Assembly: GCA_035573675.1 (NCBI GenBank)
Contig: DATMAB010000018.1
Span: 62,001 to 126,000 of the forward strand
Length of the DNA: 64,000 nucleotides
Reading direction: 5' to 3'
Source: Terriglobales bacterium
GTDB lineage: Bacteria > Acidobacteriota > Terriglobia > Terriglobales > Acidobacteriaceae
Below the pieces are notes generated by a model. The model was not told the DNA's origin and ran no database searches. It was given only the letters and a program-made list of their open reading frames with translations. Made by a program: the position numbers and the translations under genes. Positions within the stretch are counted from its first letter, which is position 1. Every line of letters starts with the position of its first letter. This document shows positions 37,022-57,175 of this stretch, piece by piece.

Positions 37022-38200
37022 ATGGCCATGAAATTCCGGGGAGTGGACTTCATCGAGTTTGATTCCCTGCTGAACGACGAGGAACGGCTGGTGCGCGACA
37101 GCACGCGCAAGTTCATCGAGGACAACCTGACCCCCATCATCGAGCAGTGCAACCGCGAGGGGCGCTTCCCGCGCGAACTGGTGAAGCCCATGGGCGACCT
37201 GGGCTACTACGGCGCGAGCCTGAAGGGCTACGGCTGCGCGGAGATGTCGAACGTGGAGTATGGCCTGGTGATGCAGGAGCTGGAGCGCGGCGACAGCGGC
37301 GTGCGCTCGTTCGTGAGCGTGCAATCCGCGCTCTGCATGTATCCCATTTACGAGTTCGGCAGCGAAGAGCAGAAGCAGAAGTGGCTGCCGGCCATGCAGA
37401 AGGGCGAGAAGCTGGGGTGTTTCGGGCTCACGGAACCGCAGTTCGGCTCCAATCCGGGCGGGATGCTGACTCGAGCCAAGAAAGACGGCGACAGCTACAT
37501 CCTGAACGGAGAAAAGATGTGGATCACGTCGGGCACGATCGCCGACCTGGCCATCATCTGGGCCAAGGTGGCCGACGAGGGCGACCGCATCCGGGGATTC
37601 ATCGTGGAGACCGACCGGCCGGGCTTCTCGGCGCAGGATGTGCACGGGAAGTGGTCGCTCAGGGCGAGCGTGACGTCGGGGCTGTCGCTGCAGGACGTGC
37701 GCGTGCCGGCGTGCAACCTGCTGCCGAAATCGGGGGGATTGAAGTCGCCGCTCATGTGCCTGAACCAGGCGCGCTACGGGATCGCGTGGGGCGCCGTGGG
37801 AGCCGCCATGTCCTGCTACGACACCGCGCTGCAATACGCGCAGGTGCGCAAGCAGTTCCACGACCAGCCCATCGCCTCCCACCAACTGGTGCAGGAGAAA
37901 CTGGTGTGGATGATCAGCGAAATCACCAAGGCGCAACTGCTGGTGCTGCAGGTGGGACGCATGAAGGACCAGGGCCGGGCGCAGCACTACCACATCTCCA
38001 TGGCCAAGCGGAACAACGTGTGGATGGCGCTGGAGTGCGCGCGGCTGGCGCGCGACATCCTGGGAGCGAACGGAGTGGCCGACGACTATCCCATCATGCG
38101 GCACATGATGAACCTGGAGTCGGTGAAGACGTACGAAGGTACGCACGATATCCATACGCTGATCATCGGAGCGCAGATCACGGGGATCGATGCGTTCTAA
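37022..38200 (+). CDS. gcdH: Acyl-CoA dehydrogenase, glutaryl-CoA dehydrogenase type
   Basis: This is an FAD-dependent dehydrogenase of 392 residues. The catalytic glutamate is E372 in KTYEGTHDIHTLI, the context typical of glutaryl-CoA dehydrogenase. FAD and substrate regions GCFGLTEPQFGSNPGG and KMWITSG are present. The substrate is probably glutaryl-CoA (lysine/tryptophan breakdown), but no pathway partner is next to it. ATG 37022 (or 37028) starts it. Confidence 0.88.
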   Translation: MAMKFRGVDFIEFDSLLNDEERLVRDSTRKFIEDNLTPIIEQCNREGRFPRELVKPMGDLGYYGASLKGYGCAEMSNVEYGLVMQELERGDSGVRSFVSVQSALCMYPIYEFGSEEQKQKWLPAMQKGEKLGCFGLTEPQFGSNPGGMLTRAKKDGDSYILNGEKMWITSGTIADLAIIWAKVADEGDRIRGFIVETDRPGFSAQDVHGKWSLRASVTSGLSLQDVRVPACNLLPKSGGLKSPLMCLNQARYGIAWGAVGAAMSCYDTALQYAQVRKQFHDQPIASHQLVQEKLVWMISEITKAQLLVLQVGRMKDQGRAQHYHISMAKRNNVWMALECARLARDILGANGVADDYPIMRHMMNLESVKTYEGTHDIHTLIIGAQITGIDAF

Positions 38201-38203
38201 AGG

Positions 38204-38238
38204 CAGTGGCTAGTGGTCGGTGGCCAGTGGCCAGTACA
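38204..38238. repeat. Heptad array just after the gcdH stop codon
   Basis: Units CAGTGGC, TAGTGGT, CGGTGGC, CAGTGGC and CAGTACA have GTGG every 7 nt and begin 4 nt after the stop. A second short series (TGGCGAT, TAGCACT, TGGCACT) follows near 38247-38267. Confidence 0.88.
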
Positions 38239-38314
38239 ACGGCATCTGGCGATTAGCACTTGGCACTGAGCCGCCAACCGTTGCAGCAGAATCGGCCGGA
38301 GAGTGGAGGCGCGA

Positions 38315-39349
<1,035 letters not shown>

Positions 39350-39408
39350 TTAGTTCCCGGTTCTCAGTCCTCCGAAGAGAACGCCCACCGAAGGAGCGCT
39401 GCCTGCCA

Positions 39409-40593
39409 CTAGCTCGCTGCCTGCCACTCGGCGGGCGGCCATTCCACGGGCGTACCTTCGAACAGCGGAACGCAGTTCTCGATGCGGCGCGTGCCGTCGT
39501 GGATGGCGAAGCGGGTGGGCTTGCCGCTGGAAGTGCGATTCCACATCGAGACCCCGGCGTAAGCGCCGTCGTTGCGCAGGATGTAGAAGATCATCTCGAC
39601 GAAGCGCAGGCGGGTCATGTCGTTGTTGTAGTTGCGGGCGATGCGACGCAAGGCATCGAGGCCGGCTTCCGTGGGTTCCATGCCGCGGCGCATGTTCTCC
39701 ACAATGGTGTGCGCGCCGCAGATCTTGATGCAGTCCTCTCCCCGGCCGGTGGCTCCCGCTGAACCGACATCCTGGTCGGTCCAGCAGCCGGCCCCAATGA
39801 TGGGCGAATCGCCGACGCGGCCGGGGATCTTCCAGGCCAGGCCGCTGGTGGTGGTGGCTCCGGACATCTCACCTTTCTCGTTCACGACAGAGACGTGGAT
39901 GGTACCCGTGGGCGGAAAGAGCACGCGCTCGATGGCCTGGCGGCGGAACTCGGGCTCGATGCCCAGACGCGCGGCGACTTCTTCCATCCAACGAATTTGT
40001 TGCTTGAGGGCATCGAGAGGAGGCACGGTGGTGGGCGGCGTCCATTTGGGATCGGCGAGACCGGGCCCCCAGGAATCGGCGCGCGACATGGTCTCCTTCC
40101 AAAGCAGCCAGGTCTTGCGGGAACGTTCGGTGAGCAGGTTCACTTCCGGGAAGCCGTGCGCGCGGGCAAAGCGCGCAGCGCCTTCGCCAACCAGCAGAAG
40201 GTGGTCGGTGCGCTCCATCACCGTTCTGGCGAGCATGGAGACGTTCCTGATGCCGCGGACCGAAGCTACGGCGCCGGCGCGGCGGGTGGGGCCGTGCATG
40301 CAACAGGCATCCAGCTCGACCACACCTTCCTCGTTGGGCAGGCCGCCGAGGCCGACGGAGTCGTCGGTGGGGTCATCCTCCTGCGCGCGACAGACGAACA
40401 GAGCTGCGTCCAGGGTGTCGCCGCCACGCTGCAGCAACTGGTAGGCCCCGTCCTGAGACGGACTGCCAGTGACTTTGCTGATGATCGCGGGACGGCGCGG
40501 AGACGACGGCGGCTGTTGAGCTTCAAGGTCAAGCCCAACAGCGGCGGCGGTCATGCTGCTGGCGACCAGGAAATCCCGGCGGGAAGTTTTCAT
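39409..40593 (-). CDS. Exported N4-(beta-N-acetylglucosaminyl)-L-asparaginase (Ntn hydrolase)
   Basis: This aspartylglucosaminidase-type enzyme has 394 residues and cleaves N-glycan-linked asparagine. It carries a Tat-type leader (RRDFLVASSMTAAAVGLDLEA). Autoprocessing would expose T231 in PPTG-TIHVSVVNEKG, followed by GLAWKIPGRVGDSPIIGAG, the conserved family block. ATG 40593 has a strong AGGAGG. It suggests periplasmic breakdown of glycopeptides. Confidence 0.9.
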   Translation of the reverse strand: MKTSRRDFLVASSMTAAAVGLDLEAQQPPSSPRRPAIISKVTGSPSQDGAYQLLQRGGDTLDAALFVCRAQEDDPTDDSVGLGGLPNEEGVVELDACCMHGPTRRAGAVASVRGIRNVSMLARTVMERTDHLLLVGEGAARFARAHGFPEVNLLTERSRKTWLLWKETMSRADSWGPGLADPKWTPPTTVPPLDALKQQIRWMEEVAARLGIEPEFRRQAIERVLFPPTGTIHVSVVNEKGEMSGATTTSGLAWKIPGRVGDSPIIGAGCWTDQDVGSAGATGRGEDCIKICGAHTIVENMRRGMEPTEAGLDALRRIARNYNNDMTRLRFVEMIFYILRNDGAYAGVSMWNRTSSGKPTRFAIHDGTRRIENCVPLFEGTPVEWPPAEWQAAS

Positions 40594-40677
40594 GAGAGAT
40601 CCTCCTGGAAGGGCGAAAGAATAGCACGAGGGCGGTGGTGGTCCGCCCTCGCGGCAATACACGTCGTTATAGCTTGC

Positions 40678-41847
40678 CTATCCCGCGATGGCCTGCGAAG
40701 CGCCCCGGTCGGCGCGGAAGCGCAGCAGCGCGCCGATGCGGCCGGCGGCTGACAGTCCGGCATGCTCAGGCACACAGACCAGGTCCGCCCCGCCCCGCAG
40801 GGCGCGGGTCACCAGATGGTCGGTGACGTCCTCCAGCTCGCGGGTAGGCTGACCGCAGACGCCGCAGTTCGCCGCCACGCGGTAGTCGAGATGGCCGCAG
40901 TGGGGACACTCGGAGGCTTGGGCCTGGAAGCCTTCGCCGAGTAACAGGGTTTGGACTTCGCCGCGCTCCAGGGCATTCAGCACACGGCGCAGGCCAAGCG
41001 CGCCGCGGCCGTTGCGGCGCGCCTCAGCCATCACGTCCTCGACCAGGGCGCTACGGCGTTGCGCTTCGAGCTGGTCCAGGCGGAGCTCGACGTGGTCGCG
41101 AATCTCATCGGGCGTGGTCTGCACGGGATCGAGTGGGTCGCGCCCCAGCAGTCGCCCCTTGAGGTAGGGATGCAGCAGGGGCTCGAACTCAGCCCAGACG
41201 TCGTCGCGGCACAGGACCAGCAGCCGGTCGCAGCCGCCGGTGAGCATCAGGTCACGGGCGCGGGTGGCGACCCGGCGGAAGTGCCGGTGCGCCTCCGCCG
41301 CCAGGTGGCGTTGAGAATGGCCGGCATCATAGCCCAGGAACCCCTCGCTGGCGCCGTGGGGAGGCAGGGCATCCATGAATTCGTCCTTGAGCCGGATCTC
41401 ACCCATTTCGACCTCGAAGAAGCGGGCGTGCTCGCGGTCGAGAGCGACCACGAGGCAGCGCGAAAGCTGTTCACCCAGGGCGAGCAACGGGCGAAGCTGG
41501 AAGCGTGAGTCAAGGAAGAGTTCGGTGCGTCCCAGGCGGGCCGGCAGGTCGTACTGACGCCAGAAATCGCGGGCGGAACAGGCGAAGATGGCGCGGGCGC
41601 GGCGATGGTCACCGTGCCAGAGTTCGTTCATGGCCAAAATCCGTTCCAGGTCGCGGCGGACCGCGGCCGCTGAGCTGCCGTTGGCCGGCAGGCGGCGCAG
41701 GGCTTCGCGCACTTTCTCCCTCACGGCCACAATCTCACCGTGGTGGGACTTATCCTGAGGACGGGGCGGTTGAAAGTAGAAACTGACGGCAGCACCTTCC
41801 GGCGATTCCAATTCGGCCAGATGGCGAAGCTCGTCGCGAGTGATCAT
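40678..41847 (-). CDS. Bacterial eRF1/Pelota-like (BaeRF family) protein without GGQ
   Basis: It has 389 residues. Residues about 130-240 look like eRF1 domain 2 (RCLVVALDREHARFFEV, then LLVLCRDDVWAEFEPLLHPY). Where eRF1 has GGQ, this protein has GYDAGHSQRH (172-181), so it should not hydrolyse peptidyl-tRNA. The C-terminal part (265-389) resembles domain 3 with a zinc ribbon, C314-x2-C317 and C328-x2-C331. It starts at ATG 41847 with GGAGG, 23 nt after the HPF-sigma gene, clearly in one operon. Known GGQ-less relatives such as Balon are hibernation factors; the role here is inferred. Confidence 0.8.
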   Translation of the reverse strand: MITRDELRHLAELESPEGAAVSFYFQPPRPQDKSHHGEIVAVREKVREALRRLPANGSSAAAVRRDLERILAMNELWHGDHRRARAIFACSARDFWRQYDLPARLGRTELFLDSRFQLRPLLALGEQLSRCLVVALDREHARFFEVEMGEIRLKDEFMDALPPHGASEGFLGYDAGHSQRHLAAEAHRHFRRVATRARDLMLTGGCDRLLVLCRDDVWAEFEPLLHPYLKGRLLGRDPLDPVQTTPDEIRDHVELRLDQLEAQRRSALVEDVMAEARRNGRGALGLRRVLNALERGEVQTLLLGEGFQAQASECPHCGHLDYRVAANCGVCGQPTRELEDVTDHLVTRALRGGADLVCVPEHAGLSAAGRIGALLRFRADRGASQAIAG

Positions 41848-41870
41848 AAGGGCCTCCGGGGAAAACAGAA

Positions 41871-42908
41871 TCAGGCTGTTCTGGAGTAATGCAGAAGGCG
41901 TTCGCGGAAGACCTCCGGGCCCGGCAGGGTGCGGCGCAAGTGCTCACGCGCGGCGGCGATGGAGGCGCGGACGTCAGTCACGGAGCGGTCGGTCGCGGCG
42001 GCGATCTCCTCGATGGTAAAGCCCTCAATGGCGAACAGGACGAAGGCTTCGCGGTCGCGGGCAGGGGCGTGCAACAGAGCGCGCTCCACCTGCTGGAGGA
42101 CCTCGTCGGAGGCCGCAATCTCCTCCGGGGTGAGGGCGCGGCGGTCGGCGATGACCTCTTCTTCGAGAAGAAGCTCATCGGGTTGGTGATACTGAAGCTG
42201 GGAGTCGTCGGTAGCGCGGACGTTCTGCTTGCGGGCGGAGGTTTCCAGTGGTACCGCCGCAGGAACGTGCTCGTGGTCACGCGCGTCAATCTCCGAGAGG
42301 GCGCGGATGGAAAGCCTATAAAGCCAGCGCTCCAGTGAGAGCGGCTGGGGGCGCTCCTCGCCGTTGGCCAAGGCGGTGGCGATGGCCTCATCAATGACGT
42401 CCTCACGGGTGATCCAGCCGGGGTCGATCAGGCCGGCGGCTTCGCGATAGCGCAGCTCGCGCTCCACGAAGCGCTCCAGGCGCGCCAGGTTCACATTCAC
42501 GTAGGAGCGGATGTCCGCGTTGGTGACGCCGGGGGCCGGTACGGCAGCCACGGTTTTCTCGAAGGGGACGGCTGAAGCCGTCTGGCGGGAATGCCGGCGC
42601 CACTTGTGTTGGCTGCGCAGCAGCTCCTTGTGCTTGTTGAGCTGCGCCATCAGGTCGGAGAAGGCGGCCTTGGCGGCCTGTACGCCCGTAGGCGCCGAGT
42701 CGTGCACGGCCAACTGCCCGGAGGGCAGGCGCAGGTTCAAGGCAACGCTGACGGAAGCGCGCGTGGAGTTAGGCTCTATGCTGCCGTGCAGGTGCACCAG
42801 TTCCGGGCGGAAGGCGTGCAACCGTCGTTCGAGCTTCTCTATCTGGTTCTGGAGTTCCTTTTCGACTTCGGGGGTCTTGGCGGCTTTGTAGCTGAAGTGC
42901 ACGTTCAT
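41871..42908 (-). CDS. HPF/RaiA ribosome-hibernation domain fused to sigma-70-like domains
   Basis: It has 345 residues in three parts. Residues 1-108 are an HPF/RaiA (S30AE) domain: MNVHFSYKAAKTPEVEKELQ, with the ASVSVALNLRLPSG strands and a basic C-terminal helix. A linker follows (109-128). Residues 130-210 resemble sigma region 2 (ITREDVIDEAIATAL, ERWLYRLSIRALSEID), and 268-330 resemble sigma region 4 (REAFVLFAIEGFTIEEIAAA, then TDVRASIAAAREHLRRTL). The C-terminal domain normal for long HPF is absent. ATG 42908 has GAGG 6 nt upstream. The eRF1-like gene follows in the same operon. Confidence 0.82.
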   Translation of the reverse strand: MNVHFSYKAAKTPEVEKELQNQIEKLERRLHAFRPELVHLHGSIEPNSTRASVSVALNLRLPSGQLAVHDSAPTGVQAAKAAFSDLMAQLNKHKELLRSQHKWRRHSRQTASAVPFEKTVAAVPAPGVTNADIRSYVNVNLARLERFVERELRYREAAGLIDPGWITREDVIDEAIATALANGEERPQPLSLERWLYRLSIRALSEIDARDHEHVPAAVPLETSARKQNVRATDDSQLQYHQPDELLLEEEVIADRRALTPEEIAASDEVLQQVERALLHAPARDREAFVLFAIEGFTIEEIAAATDRSVTDVRASIAAAREHLRRTLPGPEVFRERLLHYSRTA

Positions 42909-43060
42909 GGGAGCCTCGGAATAAGAGAGTCCAACTGCACCCACGATTGAGGACGGCCTTACAGGCTGCCGACAAATTGATTCTACACCCGCGGAAAAAC
43001 GTCAAGAGCAAAACCGCCGGGATGGTCCTTTTCGCCTTGACTTTTCCCGCGAAGAGGGAG

Positions 43061-44185
43061 TCAGACGGCGACGGTGAAGGAGGCTTCGTTCCGCGTGACC
43101 GGGCGATAGAGCGTGTCGCGCTCGACCGGTTCGCGGCCAGCCTCGCGGATGAGCCGGATCAGCTCCTGGCGGCGGAGTCCTTGCGGGGTAGTGGCGCCGG
43201 CGTCGTGGTAGATCTTCTCTTCGATGACGGTGCCATCGATGTCGTCGGCGCCGAAGCGTAATGTGATTTGCGCGATTTTGGGCGTCACCATCTGCCAGTA
43301 CGATTTGATGTGGGGAAAGTTGTCCAGCACCAGGCGGCCGATGGCGATGTTCTTCACGTCGGCCAGGCCTGTGGTTTTGGGCAGATGGCGCAGAGCCGTG
43401 TTCTCGGGGTGGAAAGCCAGTGGAATAAAGGTCTGGAAGCCGCCGGTCTCATCCTGCAGAGCGCGGAGCTTGAGCAGATGGTCGACGCGGTCTTCGTCAG
43501 TTTCGACGTGCCCGTAGAGCATGGTGGCGTTGGAGCGGAGACCGATCTGGTGGGCGATGCGCGCCGTATCCAGCCACTGGTCGCCATCGATCTTGTGGTC
43601 GCAGATGATGTGGCGCACGCGGTCGGCGAAGATCTCCGCCCCGCCTCCGGGAAGCGACTCCACCCCGGCCGCCTTGAGCTGCTCCAGCGTCTGGCGGATG
43701 GAAAGTTTCGCGCGTTTGGCCATATAGGCGACCTCCACCATGGTGAAGGCCTTCAGGTGCACCTGCGGGAAGCGTTCCTTCAGTCCACGGATGAGATCGA
43801 GGAAGTACTGGAAGGGCAGGTCGGGATGCAGTCCGCCGACGATGTGGAACTCGGTGATGGCATCGTTCCAGCCGGAAGCCGCCGTCTGGAACGCTTCTTC
43901 CAGGGCCATGGTGTAGGCACCGGGGGAGTCCTGCTTGCGGCCGAAGGCGCACAGGCGGCAGGCTGCCACGCAAACGTTGGTCGGATTGATGTGGCGGTTC
44001 ACATTGAACCAGGCCACATTGCCGTGCATGCGTTCGCGCACATGGTTGGCCAGCCAGCCCAGGGCCAGCACGTCGGCGGAGCGGTAGAGGGCAAGGGCGT
44101 CTTCGGCATCCAAGCGGACACCCGCCATCACTTTCTCATGGATGGGATGCAGGCGCGGGTCGTCGGTCTGGAAGGGATGTGCCAT
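43061..44185 (-). CDS. mqnE: Aminofutalosine synthase (radical SAM)
   Basis: This builds aminodeoxyfutalosine in the futalosine route to menaquinone. It has 374 residues. The radical-SAM cysteines are C72-x3-C76-x2-C79 in NPTNVCVAACRLCAFGR. ITEFHIVGGLHPDLPFQYF and ATMLYGHVET are conserved in MqnE/MqnC, and the context fits MqnE. A MqnP-like prenyltransferase gene is close by (44682-45542), separated by cspA. Confidence 0.9.
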   Translation of the reverse strand: MAHPFQTDDPRLHPIHEKVMAGVRLDAEDALALYRSADVLALGWLANHVRERMHGNVAWFNVNRHINPTNVCVAACRLCAFGRKQDSPGAYTMALEEAFQTAASGWNDAITEFHIVGGLHPDLPFQYFLDLIRGLKERFPQVHLKAFTMVEVAYMAKRAKLSIRQTLEQLKAAGVESLPGGGAEIFADRVRHIICDHKIDGDQWLDTARIAHQIGLRSNATMLYGHVETDEDRVDHLLKLRALQDETGGFQTFIPLAFHPENTALRHLPKTTGLADVKNIAIGRLVLDNFPHIKSYWQMVTPKIAQITLRFGADDIDGTVIEEKIYHDAGATTPQGLRRQELIRLIREAGREPVERDTLYRPVTRNEASFTVAV

Positions 44186-44281
44186 GCGTGCATTTGATGA
44201 TACCGCACGGCTGCCCTCCGCCGTCGTACCGGGTGGGGACGCACGAACCCCTCGAAACGAACAGATGCGGCGAACTGAATG

Positions 44282-44306
44282 AAAAACCTGGCTGGCGGAC
44301 GCCGGC
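44282..44306 (-). terminator. Probable terminator of cspA
   Basis: On the minus strand GCCGGCG-TC-CGCCAGC (44306-44291) forms a 6-of-7 bp stem followed, after 4 nt, by TTTTT (44286-44282). It lies just after the cspA stop codon. Confidence 0.55.
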
Positions 44307-44308
44307 GG

Positions 44309-44512
44309 TCAGACGCGGACTACGTTGGACGCCTGCAATCCCTTCGGTCCCTGGGTAACCTCGAACTCGACTGTTTCGCCCTCGTTAAGCGTGCGGTAGC
44401 CATCGGACTGGATGGCGGAGTAGTGGACGAAGACGTCGCCTCCCTTCTCCCGCTGGATGAAACCGTAGCCCTTCGTGGCATTGAACCACTTCACCGTGCC
44501 TCGTTCCCTCAT
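44309..44512 (-). CDS. cspA: Cold-shock domain protein
   Basis: This is a single OB-fold nucleic-acid chaperone of 67 residues. RNP1 KGYGFIQ and RNP2 VFVHYSAI are intact, with the N-terminal [14 protein letters not shown] 44512 is the start. A -10 element and a structured leader of about 110 nt precede it, as is common for cold-shock genes. Confidence 0.96.
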
Positions 44513-44556
44513 CGCTGCTGTTGCTCCTTGCTGCTGGCCGCCGTCCTAAAGACAAA

Positions 44557-44634
44557 GGCCCCGAGGGCATAAGCGCCCCGGGGCTTCGGTCATGAGAACC
44601 GTCGCTCACCACGCCAGACTCAAGGGCGATTATA
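44557..44634 (-). promoter_or_regulatory. cspA leader: -10 element and hairpin
   Basis: TATAAT lies at 44634-44629 on the minus strand, without a good -35 at 17 nt. Downstream, GCCCCG (44558-44563) pairs with CGGGGC (44579-44584) with an interrupted inner GGC/GCC, making a hairpin in the predicted leader. It could equally be a terminator for the upstream mqnP operon, since a T-rich stretch follows. Confidence 0.5.
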
Positions 44635-44681
44635 GGGGGAAAGTCAAGGGTTTGGATAGAGCCAAGCGGCTTCCGGTACGG

Positions 44682-45542
44682 TCAGCCGAGGAGGAGGTCA
44701 CCGGCGACAAAGGCGAAAAACGCCAGGGAAATGACGCCGTTCATGGTGAAAAACGCGGCGTTCAGCCGGCTGAGGTCCTGCGGCGAAACCAGGGTGTGCT
44801 CGTAGGTCAGGAGAACCCCGACCACCACAACACCCGCCATCGCGAGGTAGTTGAGCGAGAACAGGGCCACCAGAGCCGCTAGGAGCAACAGCATGGCCCC
44901 GTGCAGGATGCGTGCGATCCACAGCGCCCACGCGATACCGAAGGCGCTCGGAATCGAGTGCAGGCCGGTTTGCCGGTCGAACTCGTAATCCTGACAGGCA
45001 TAGAGGATGTCAAAACCAGCGACCCACAGAGTGACGGCGGCCGTCAGCACCAGGATGCGGGGATCCAGCGAGCCTCGGACGGCGATCCAAGCCGCGGCTG
45101 GCGACATCCCCAGCGCGAAACCCAGCACCAGGTGGGACCAGCGCGTGTAGCGCTTGCTGTACGAGTAAAGCAGGATCACGGCCAGCGCGACCGGAGACAG
45201 CGCAAAGGTGAGCCGGTTCAGCTGCCCCGCCGCAAACACAAACAGGGCGGCCGAGGCGAGCACGAACAGGGAGACGAAACGGCGCGAGAGGGTACCCGCC
45301 GGAAGCGCGCGGGTGCGGGTGCGGGGATTGGCGGCGTCGAGAACTTGATCGGCCAGGCGATTGAAAGCCATGGCTGCCGATCGTGCCGCCACCATGGCTA
45401 CGACAATCCACAGCAGTTGGTGGGCCGTCGGCCAGCCGCCGGCCGCCAGCATGGCCCCGCAGAGCGCGAACGGCAGCGCGAAGACGGAGTGCTCCCATTT
45501 GATCATTTCCAGCGTGATGCGGATGTTGCGGATCAGGGCCAC
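44682..45542 (-). CDS. mqnP: UbiA-family prenyltransferase, MqnP type
   Basis: This probably attaches the polyprenyl chain to the naphthoate or its precursor in futalosine-pathway menaquinone synthesis. It has 286 residues and eight or nine helices. The first Asp-rich motif is NRLADQVLDAANPRTRTRAL and the second DYEFDRQTGLHSIPSAFG. Starting N-terminus ITLEMIKWEHSVFALPFALCG is typical of this subgroup. The start is GTG 45542. The role is supported by mqnE nearby. Confidence 0.87.
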   Translation of the reverse strand: MALIRNIRITLEMIKWEHSVFALPFALCGAMLAAGGWPTAHQLLWIVVAMVAARSAAMAFNRLADQVLDAANPRTRTRALPAGTLSRRFVSLFVLASAALFVFAAGQLNRLTFALSPVALAVILLYSYSKRYTRWSHLVLGFALGMSPAAAWIAVRGSLDPRILVLTAAVTLWVAGFDILYACQDYEFDRQTGLHSIPSAFGIAWALWIARILHGAMLLLLAALVALFSLNYLAMAGVVVVGVLLTYEHTLVSPQDLSRLNAAFFTMNGVISLAFFAFVAGDLLLG

Positions 45543-56398: not shown

Positions 56399-56569
56399 CC
56401 AGAAACCCTGATTTTGCGGGCCCCCGAAGCGCCGCCCCGTTGACGGTACCCTTCCCCGGCCTTTACCCTCGCCCCGGGACCCTTTTGGGGGGTACCCGGA
56501 CGGGCTAAGCGATACAACGGAATACCACTTCGGCCGCATCTATTTAGGCAGCGGCCTGACAAGGGCCGA

Positions 56570-57175
56570 TTGAGTCAGAAAAAGCCAGCACCCGCGGGTG
56601 GGCTATCGGAAGCGGAAGCCATCGCCGGAGCCCAAAAGGGGGACGCAGAAGCGTTCGAGGTCTTGTACAGCCTCCACAAGCGCCGCGTTTACTCCCTGTG
56701 CCTGCGGATGACCAGCAATACGGCTGAGGCCGAGGACCTGACGCAGGAAGCGTTCCTGCAGTTGTTCCGGAAGATCGGTACGTTCCGTGGCGAGTCGGCG
56801 TTCTCGACCTGGCTGCACCGGCTCTCGGTCAACGTAGTGCTGATGCACCTACGGAAAAAGGGGCTTCCGTCGGTGCCGCTCGAGGAGGTACTCGAGCCGC
56901 AGCAGGAAGACGGCCCACGGAAAGAGTTCGGGGAGAACGACCTCGCCCTGGTGGGCTCGGTCGATCGCGTTAACCTCGAACGCGCCATCGCGGAACTGCC
57001 GGTGGGCTATCGGACGATCTTCGTGCTGCACGACGTGCAAGGCTTCGAGCACAACGAAATCGCCGCAATGATTGGTTGCTCGGTGGGCAACAGCAAGTCG
57101 CAGCTTCACAAGGCACGGTTGAAGCTGCGGGAATTGCTGCGGCTGGAAAGGGCGGCCAGGCGGGAGAAGGAGTAA
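56570..57175 (+). CDS. ECF RNA polymerase sigma factor (RpoE-like)
   Basis: This 201-residue protein has region 2 ([38 protein letters not shown]) and region 4 ([18 protein letters not shown], then [20 protein letters not shown]). The start is TTG 56570 with an AAGGG 6 nt upstream. It is followed by a zinc-type anti-sigma factor and a DUF4097 protein, a typical envelope-signalling unit. The preceding 170 nt are G/C-rich without a gene. Confidence 0.92.

Follow-up and report, generated by a model that had tools for sequence, protein, structure and literature searches.

A putative ribosome hibernation factor that joins an HPF domain to a sigma-derived module, and its Balon-like neighbour, in Acidobacteriota

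The window analysed here, a stretch of 64,000 nucleotides from a Terriglobales bacterium (GenBank assembly GCA_035573675.1, contig DATMAB010000018.1, positions 62,001 to 126,000), carries on its reverse strand a gene for a 345-residue protein in which an HPF/RaiA domain is fused to a sigma-like module (41871..42908 (-), with its ATG at 42908). The gene for a 389-residue homologue of the Balon family (40678..41847 (-); best Pfam match baeRF family 10) lies downstream after a gap of 23 nt, and both open reading frames (ORFs) are intact. With a probability that we place slightly above one half, the fusion is a hibernation factor whose sigma module has turned into a docking or regulatory platform, and the two genes form an operon for ribosome hibernation under stress. 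This role is the most likely one for the sigma module because its two helical domains and a near-invariant QPD(E/D) linker are kept while the DNA-reading chemistry is mostly lost. No description of an HPF-sigma fusion was found in the open literature among the matches listed, subscription journals and preprints being outside the search. A first-pass annotation of this DNA had proposed the HPF domain, sigma2- and sigma4-like segments replacing the usual HPF C-terminal domain, and an eRF1-like neighbour without a GGQ motif, all of which are borne out below. It had also proposed a coupling of ribosome storage to promoter choice, which fares less well.

The HPF/RaiA domain comprises residues 1-108 of the fusion (42585..42908 (-)). 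Pfam S30AE matches it at E 2.7e-5 with 25.3 bits, above the cut-off of 23.7, and matches 38 of 42 family members at E<=0.01. These 42 are the rows of an alignment that omits a truncated sequence (L023), one with an internal deletion (L033), two near-duplicates (L036 and L037), one with an ambiguous residue (L039) and two unannotated plasmid records (L097 and L101). The AlphaFold2 model of the fusion comes from a shallow alignment of 16 sequences and has a mean pLDDT (predicted local distance difference test) of 71.8 and a pTM (predicted template modelling score) of 0.32. In this model residues 1-106 have the HPF topology, beta-alpha-beta-beta-beta-alpha, and match V. cholerae HPF (4hei) with a Z of 14.9 and a root-mean-square deviation (rmsd) of 1.3 over 88 residues, and the RaiA of 8rd8 with a Z of 14.2 and an rmsd of 1.6 over 98. 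A profile of the HPF part only (21 members) finds 24 different PDB sequences at E<=0.01, the best solved HPF at 3.5e-9. When the profile of the 42-member family is used, its N-terminal part matches solved HPFs (best 4.5e-8) and its C-terminal part solved extracytoplasmic function (ECF) sigma factors (best 9.8e-15). The N-terminal fold and the helix-2 motif L..Q..KHK..L, which is present as in solved HPFs, are common to the fusion and the HPF/RaiA factors (PF02482, TIGR00741), and all 16 aligned close relatives share the first four residues, M1-N2-V3-H4. Long HPF has its own C-terminal dimerisation domain, whereas in the fusion about 215 residues forming a sigma2-linker-sigma4 module take that place. 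PF16321, the Pfam model of the long HPF C-terminal domain, gives no match on the fusion up to E 10. The fusion is an added copy, because the genome also encodes an ordinary long HPF that has this domain (PF16321, E 4.6e-8), located behind the sigma-54 gene rpoN (L063, G000:C22).

The module that follows has the sigma2 and sigma4 folds in common with the ECF sigma factors (TIGR02937). In the model, three helices at residues 130-213 form the sigma2-like domain (42270..42521 (-)), the linker at 214-256 has a pLDDT below 50, and four helices follow at 268-327; the sigma4-like helix-turn-helix (HTH) domain is placed at residues 271-328 (41925..42098 (-)). Pfam Sigma70_r4_2 matches residues 272-324 at E 9.6e-11, and the NCBIfam ECF superfamily model matches residues 145-327 at E 1.5e-9 with 37.7 bits, under its cut-off of 42.9. 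At E<=0.01, Sigma70_r4_2 recognises 41 of the 42 members and the ECF superfamily model all of them, and a Paracoccus plasmid member matches Sigma70_r4 at E 3.1e-6, above its cut-off. Sigma region 2 alone is weak, PF04542 being found at E<=0.01 in a single member of the 42. Residues 125-331 of the model match ECF sigma factors with Z 9.3-10.4, several with a high rmsd, and since helical bundles can commonly reach such Z scores, as the search tool warns, the sigma assignment rests on the profiles too. The fusion thus has both a sigma2 and a sigma4 domain, the former recognised by its fold together with the superfamily profile and not by Pfam alone.

Twelve ECF sigma factors encoded in the same genome served as controls for the sigma module; they are the 14 places matched minus the fusion itself and L115, the weakest match, which the family profile did not recover. 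One of these controls is an ordinary ECF sigma factor encoded 13.5 kb away in the window (56444-57172 (+)). In ECF sigma factors the sigma2.3-2.4 segment contacts -10 DNA, the recognition helix of sigma4 contacts -35 DNA, and the clamp helix contacts the polymerase core. The net charge of the recognition helix is -0.74 in the family (n=42) and +2.5 in the controls (n=12), while that of sigma2.3-2.4 is -0.17 (n=41) and +4.08 (n=12); the corresponding p values, 3.9e-6 and 8.9e-7, ignore relatedness and are a guide only. Within the family, the recognition helix is near neutral in the close clade (+0.15, n=20), more acidic in the rest of the phylum (-1.19, n=16) and most acidic in plasmid members (mean -2.5, n=6). 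The charge of the clamp helix is nearly alike in family and controls (-2.43 and -1.83, p 0.026). Its Gln, however, is present in 12/12 controls and in 0/42 family members; Asp takes this position in 38/42, including the fusion itself (Asp173), and the acid beside it, at position 174, is kept in 34/42. Trp195 is present in 40/42.

The linker has its own distinctive feature. A motif of the form [FYW][YHWF]QPD[ED] is found in 40/42 family members, while QPD occurs in 0/12 controls. In the fusion it reads YHQPDE (42174..42191 (-)) and falls in a low-confidence, likely disordered segment of the model. The segment around it, residues 238-256, which was picked post hoc, has the top mean conservation among the regions compared. 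The ECF41 and ECF56 groups likewise combine fused domains with a signature linker motif, though theirs is of the type YVGPWLPEP in the account given in PMC7730460, in contrast to QPD(E/D) here. The fusion differs from ECF sigma factors in that its extension is an N-terminal HPF domain and in that the DNA-reading charge and the clamp-helix Gln are not kept. From these residue comparisons we conclude that the module has probably given up DNA reading to a large extent and kept a specific interface. A role as a promoter-choosing sigma factor appears unlikely, because neither the basic charge of the -10 and -35 segments nor the core-helix Gln is kept relative to the 12 ECF sigma factors.

The downstream protein is a homologue of Balon. 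Two NCBIfam hibernation-factor models match it at E 3.6e-19 (residues 5-377) and 2.8e-13 (residues 45-377); its 69 bits, against an equivalog cut-off of 480, make it a homologue and not an equivalog member. A PDB search with the single sequence finds nothing at E<=0.01, while a 14-sequence profile succeeds, matching archaeal pelota (1.4e-9) about as well as solved Balon 8v9j (1.5e-9, residues 6-375) and also eRF1s. With these profile scores about equal, Balon is preferred over pelota or eRF1 because the fold search favours M. smegmatis Balon 8v9l, with TM (template modelling) scores of 0.79/0.81; those for 8v9k are 0.73/0.78. GGQ is absent from the 389-residue sequence. The long helix of domain 2 (173-204 in the model) starts with the loop GYDAGHSQRH (41305..41334 (-)), in which G172, Y173, D174, G176, H177 and R180 are invariant in 14/14 aligned relatives (GYDxGH). 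Equally invariant in these 14 are the four cysteines of a Cys4 zinc-ribbon-like segment (C314, C317, C328 and C331; 40855..40908 (-)). The full-length fold, the lack of GGQ and an adjoining HPF-type gene are common to this protein and the Balon family (MSMEG_1130, Rv2629 and P. urativorans Balon; NF052287-9). It differs from the solved Balons in sequence (about 20% identity in the fold match), in carrying the Cys4 ribbon and in its best Pfam match. In the gene-neighbourhood account of PMC10901736, raiA is the commonest neighbour of Balon genes, and alternative sigma70 factors are among the neighbours listed.

The family was surveyed in 396 sampled Acidobacteriota genomes, a plasmid collection and E. 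coli genomes. A single-sequence search (E<=1e-10) finds the fusion in 23/396 Acidobacteriota genomes, and a profile of HPF, sigma2 and linker finds it in 24, three of these matches being partial (G188, G226 and G338); a further ten of the 396 have HPF-only matches. A contig search confined to close relatives gives 17 named loci, all Acidobacteriota by title. The survey of this phylum suggested by the first-pass annotation thus recovered the fusion, while its scope proved too narrow, as the family also reaches proteobacterial plasmids and a heat-resistance island. Conservation of the gene pair in related genomes, likewise proposed at first pass, holds in the close clade, where the Balon-like gene lies 10-78 nt downstream of the fusion in 20/24 loci (three loci of this clade, L034, L036 and L037, are closely similar to one another). 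The neighbour is absent from the remaining four (L031, L038, L042 and L047), from 16/17 other loci of the phylum, several of which are cut by contig ends or, as in L022-L024, have short flanks, and from 8/8 plasmid loci. A single-sequence search for the Balon-like protein gives relatives in 86/396 genomes, and 11 of those are among the 23 fusion genomes. The partnership of the fusion with the Balon-like protein is therefore real but clade-bound, and joint action would be at most clade-specific because the neighbour is missing in most loci outside the close clade.

The one locus among the 17 that has a Balon-like gene, L049 (G377:C100), places it 313 nt from the fusion. It holds genes for FtsH, the fusion, the Balon-like protein and an M48 peptidase, and an ORF in which phosphoglycerate kinase and Usp domains are combined, a set that recalls both the Balon pairing and the gene set of the heat-resistance island described below. 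In a midpoint-rooted tree, plasmid and island members form one group (support 99/96) and the Terriglobales another (100/100), and L049, less well supported (90/76), is the first branch on the side of the Acidobacteriota. The fusion has different neighbours in other families of this phylum. By eye, an aminotransferase-like gene follows the fusion in L050-L053, L058 and L061, and an HD-domain/OB-fold-like gene precedes it in L052, L053, L055 and L061, both being Pfam-checked in L053. In another locus, L022, the fusion is followed after about 100 nt by a STAS-domain gene of the anti-anti-sigma type (L022:1018-1416).

On plasmids, tblastn finds fusion relatives in 26 records, of which 16 cover at least 80% of the query; among the 20 listed of the 26, all are from Proteobacteria. 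The fusion is accompanied by HdeD on plasmids of Paracoccus, Shinella, Roseomonas and Sphingomonas, and in the first three also by three Hsp20s, MarR, FtsH and an AAA ATPase. Its neighbours in Burkholderia and Paraburkholderia are Hsp20 genes on one side and GroES-GroEL-DnaK on the other. A blastn search of E. coli genomes with the alphaproteobacterial fusion gene finds nothing, the relation being seen at the protein level only. A search with the Paracoccus protein leads to an uncharacterised protein encoded immediately ahead of trx-GI in islands of Pseudomonas fragi, Raoultella, E. coli and Acinetobacter, that is, in the transmissible locus of stress tolerance (tLST), also called the locus of heat resistance (LHR). 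The preceding gene is hdeD-GI in three islands and DUF308 in P. fragi. Since this gene order agrees with that of PMC8290217, in which orf11 has the slot before trx-GI, the island protein is identified as Orf11.

Orf11 is a homologue of the fusion along its length, but much diverged. The family profile scores 143-153 bits on the four island proteins, where the best of 200 shuffles reaches 9.3, and a profile of Terriglobales members only scores 47-59 bits, where the best shuffle reaches 5.0. In a profile-profile comparison the match has a probability of 98.1% and spans residues 90-333, so that most of the HPF part lies outside it; the alignment to the family profile starts at residue 1, and it is on this profile that the HPF end rests. 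When the proteins are scanned singly, S30AE and sigma matches all stay under the curated Pfam cut-off. The HTH of the tLST members is marginal (Sigma70_r4_2 at E 0.002-0.013 in 3/4, under the cut-off) and Trp195 is lost in 4/4, while the linker motif is kept as EFYQPDD in all four. In the tLST records the AAA ATPase found near fusion relatives is ClpK; FtsH also belongs to the tLST gene set, as does an HtpX-type protease in two records. No Balon-like gene is present among the annotated neighbours of Orf11 in the island records. Conversely, the Hsp20-ClpK-YfdX-HdeD-Orf11-Trx-KefB set is not found among the immediate neighbours of the fusion in the window. Among complete E. coli genomes, 152 of 5,426 contain Orf11 DNA, at least 80% of the gene being present in 144. 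The work in PMC7010813 reports eleven LHR proteins as expressed, one of them a 'hypothetical protein' that is not stated to be Orf11.

In the mechanism that we favour, the HPF domain of the fusion would lie in the mRNA/tRNA channel of an idle ribosome, at its decoding centre, and in the clade that has both proteins the Balon-like protein would fill the A site of the same ribosome. This joint occupancy is modelled on RaiA and Balon in Psychrobacter; in structure 8rd8, RaiA and Balon are together on one ribosome. The sigma-derived module, presumably a former ECF sigma factor standing where long HPF has its dimerisation domain, would dock elsewhere by way of its helices and the QPDE linker; candidate partners are the core of RNA polymerase, the fusion's own HPF domain and a proteostasis factor. 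The neighbourhoods favour a role under stress, as relatives adjoin Hsp20, FtsH, AAA ATPases, HdeD, or GroEL and DnaK. HibA, an HPF/RaiA-CBS fusion described in PMC13324472, shows that an HPF fusion can be a genuine hibernation factor, although HibA is archaeal and carries a CBS module while the present fusion is bacterial and carries a sigma-like one.

Several observations weigh against this assignment. The charge tests count related sequences as independent. Lys or Arg at column 314, a -35-contact position, is kept in 15/20 members of the close clade and 18/42 overall, and Pfam still picks up the HTH in all but one of the 42 members, so DNA binding is possible. The Balon-like neighbour, as described above, is largely lacking outside the close clade and is absent from part of it. 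In E. coli MG1655 lacZ::LHR, orf11 is outside the 7/13 genes whose deletion is reported to lower heat or chlorine resistance (PMC8407380), and its deletion leaves lipid oxidation unchanged in the same report; orf11 is described as disrupted in LHR2 islands (PMC5383660). Because of the deletion result and the disrupted LHR2 copies, Orf11 is regarded as dispensable for the classic heat and chlorine phenotypes.

Among the other explanations, the one that survives best, though we consider it improbable, makes the sigma module a tether to the RNA polymerase core without promoter specificity, so that the fusion would bridge or co-hibernate idle ribosomes and polymerase. The sigma2-sigma4 architecture, the retained acid at position 174 and the location of the near-invariant motif in the sigma2-sigma4 linker are consistent with such a tether, the acidic QPDE linker being situated where ECF linkers thread through the polymerase. 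Against it are the complete absence of the clamp-helix Gln and the loss of Trp195 in all tLST members. A broader and slightly less probable proposal is that the whole family physically joins hibernating ribosomes to the polymerase core, the HPF end silencing the ribosome and the sigma-derived end parking the polymerase, together with the Balon-like protein in Terriglobales and as Orf11 on heat-resistance islands. If this were true, one factor would put translation and transcription to sleep together, and any contact of the sigma remnant with RNA polymerase would link the two shutdowns in one molecule.

More doubtful is a functional ECF sigma factor with a built-in ribosome sensor, as the first-pass annotation had suggested; its HPF domain would keep it on idle ribosomes, and once released it would direct RNA polymerase to stress promoters. 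The profile matches to the ECF superfamily model and Sigma70_r4_2 across the family and the basic residue at the -35-contact column in most of the close clade agree with it. The loss of basic charge from both DNA-reading segments, the acidic recognition helix of the plasmid members, the marginal HTH of the tLST members beside a retained linker motif, and the type of the conserved upstream element all speak against it. This element, GGTGTAGAAT (42980..42989 (-)), is a -10-like promoter element of the fusion gene with the consensus GG[TA]GTAnAAT. It is found 58-93 nt before the fusion start in 24/24 close-clade loci, where shuffling gives an expectation of 0.24. One close-clade locus has it in the form GGTGTAAGAT; 42980-42989 is the sole match to GGWGTANAAT within the window, and GGTGTANAAT has 6 sites genome-wide. 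Since its end, TAnAAT, resembles an ordinary -10 box, the element does not point to a promoter recognised by the fusion. Autoregulation through an ECF-type promoter was considered and rejected, the sole conserved upstream element found being of the TAnAAT type. No constant -35 spacing is seen by eye upstream of the fusion, and a strict sigma-70 promoter scan at the locus finds nothing. A hairpin suspected by eye in the 5' leader was dropped, as RNAalifold gives 0 pairs.

Intramolecular control, in which the linker motif would dock on the HPF domain and close it until stress opens it, is a rival worth stating because of the ECF41 precedent, where the linker motif contacts the fused SnoaL domain according to the accounts in PMC8999054 and PMC7730460, and SigG1 (7qh5), an ECF sigma factor that also has SnoaL fused to it, is one of the structural matches (Z 9.7); we nevertheless hold it to be quite improbable, the linker being too uncertain in the model for any contact to be read from it. 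Frameshift or misassembly as the origin of the fusion, a concern raised at first pass, is ruled out by the many intact homologues.

If the fusion is a hibernation factor with a sigma-derived platform, it points to a bacterial class of such factors that uses a sigma factor as its scaffold, a counterpart of archaeal HibA. Orf11 of a much-studied heat-resistance island would also gain its first testable function.

The organisation of the locus suggests that the fusion and the Balon-like gene form a two-gene operon, since the conserved element GGTGTAGAAT lies upstream and a terminator-like stem follows the Balon-like gene. This 11-bp stem-loop (40625..40653 (-)) has the longest stem of three terminator-like sites found in 2.7 kb, where 1.9 are expected. 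An Rfam scan of 38000-45000 of the window gives no match. The genes directly flanking the pair encode a radical SAM protein (MqnC/CofH-like) and a member of the asparaginase-2 family.

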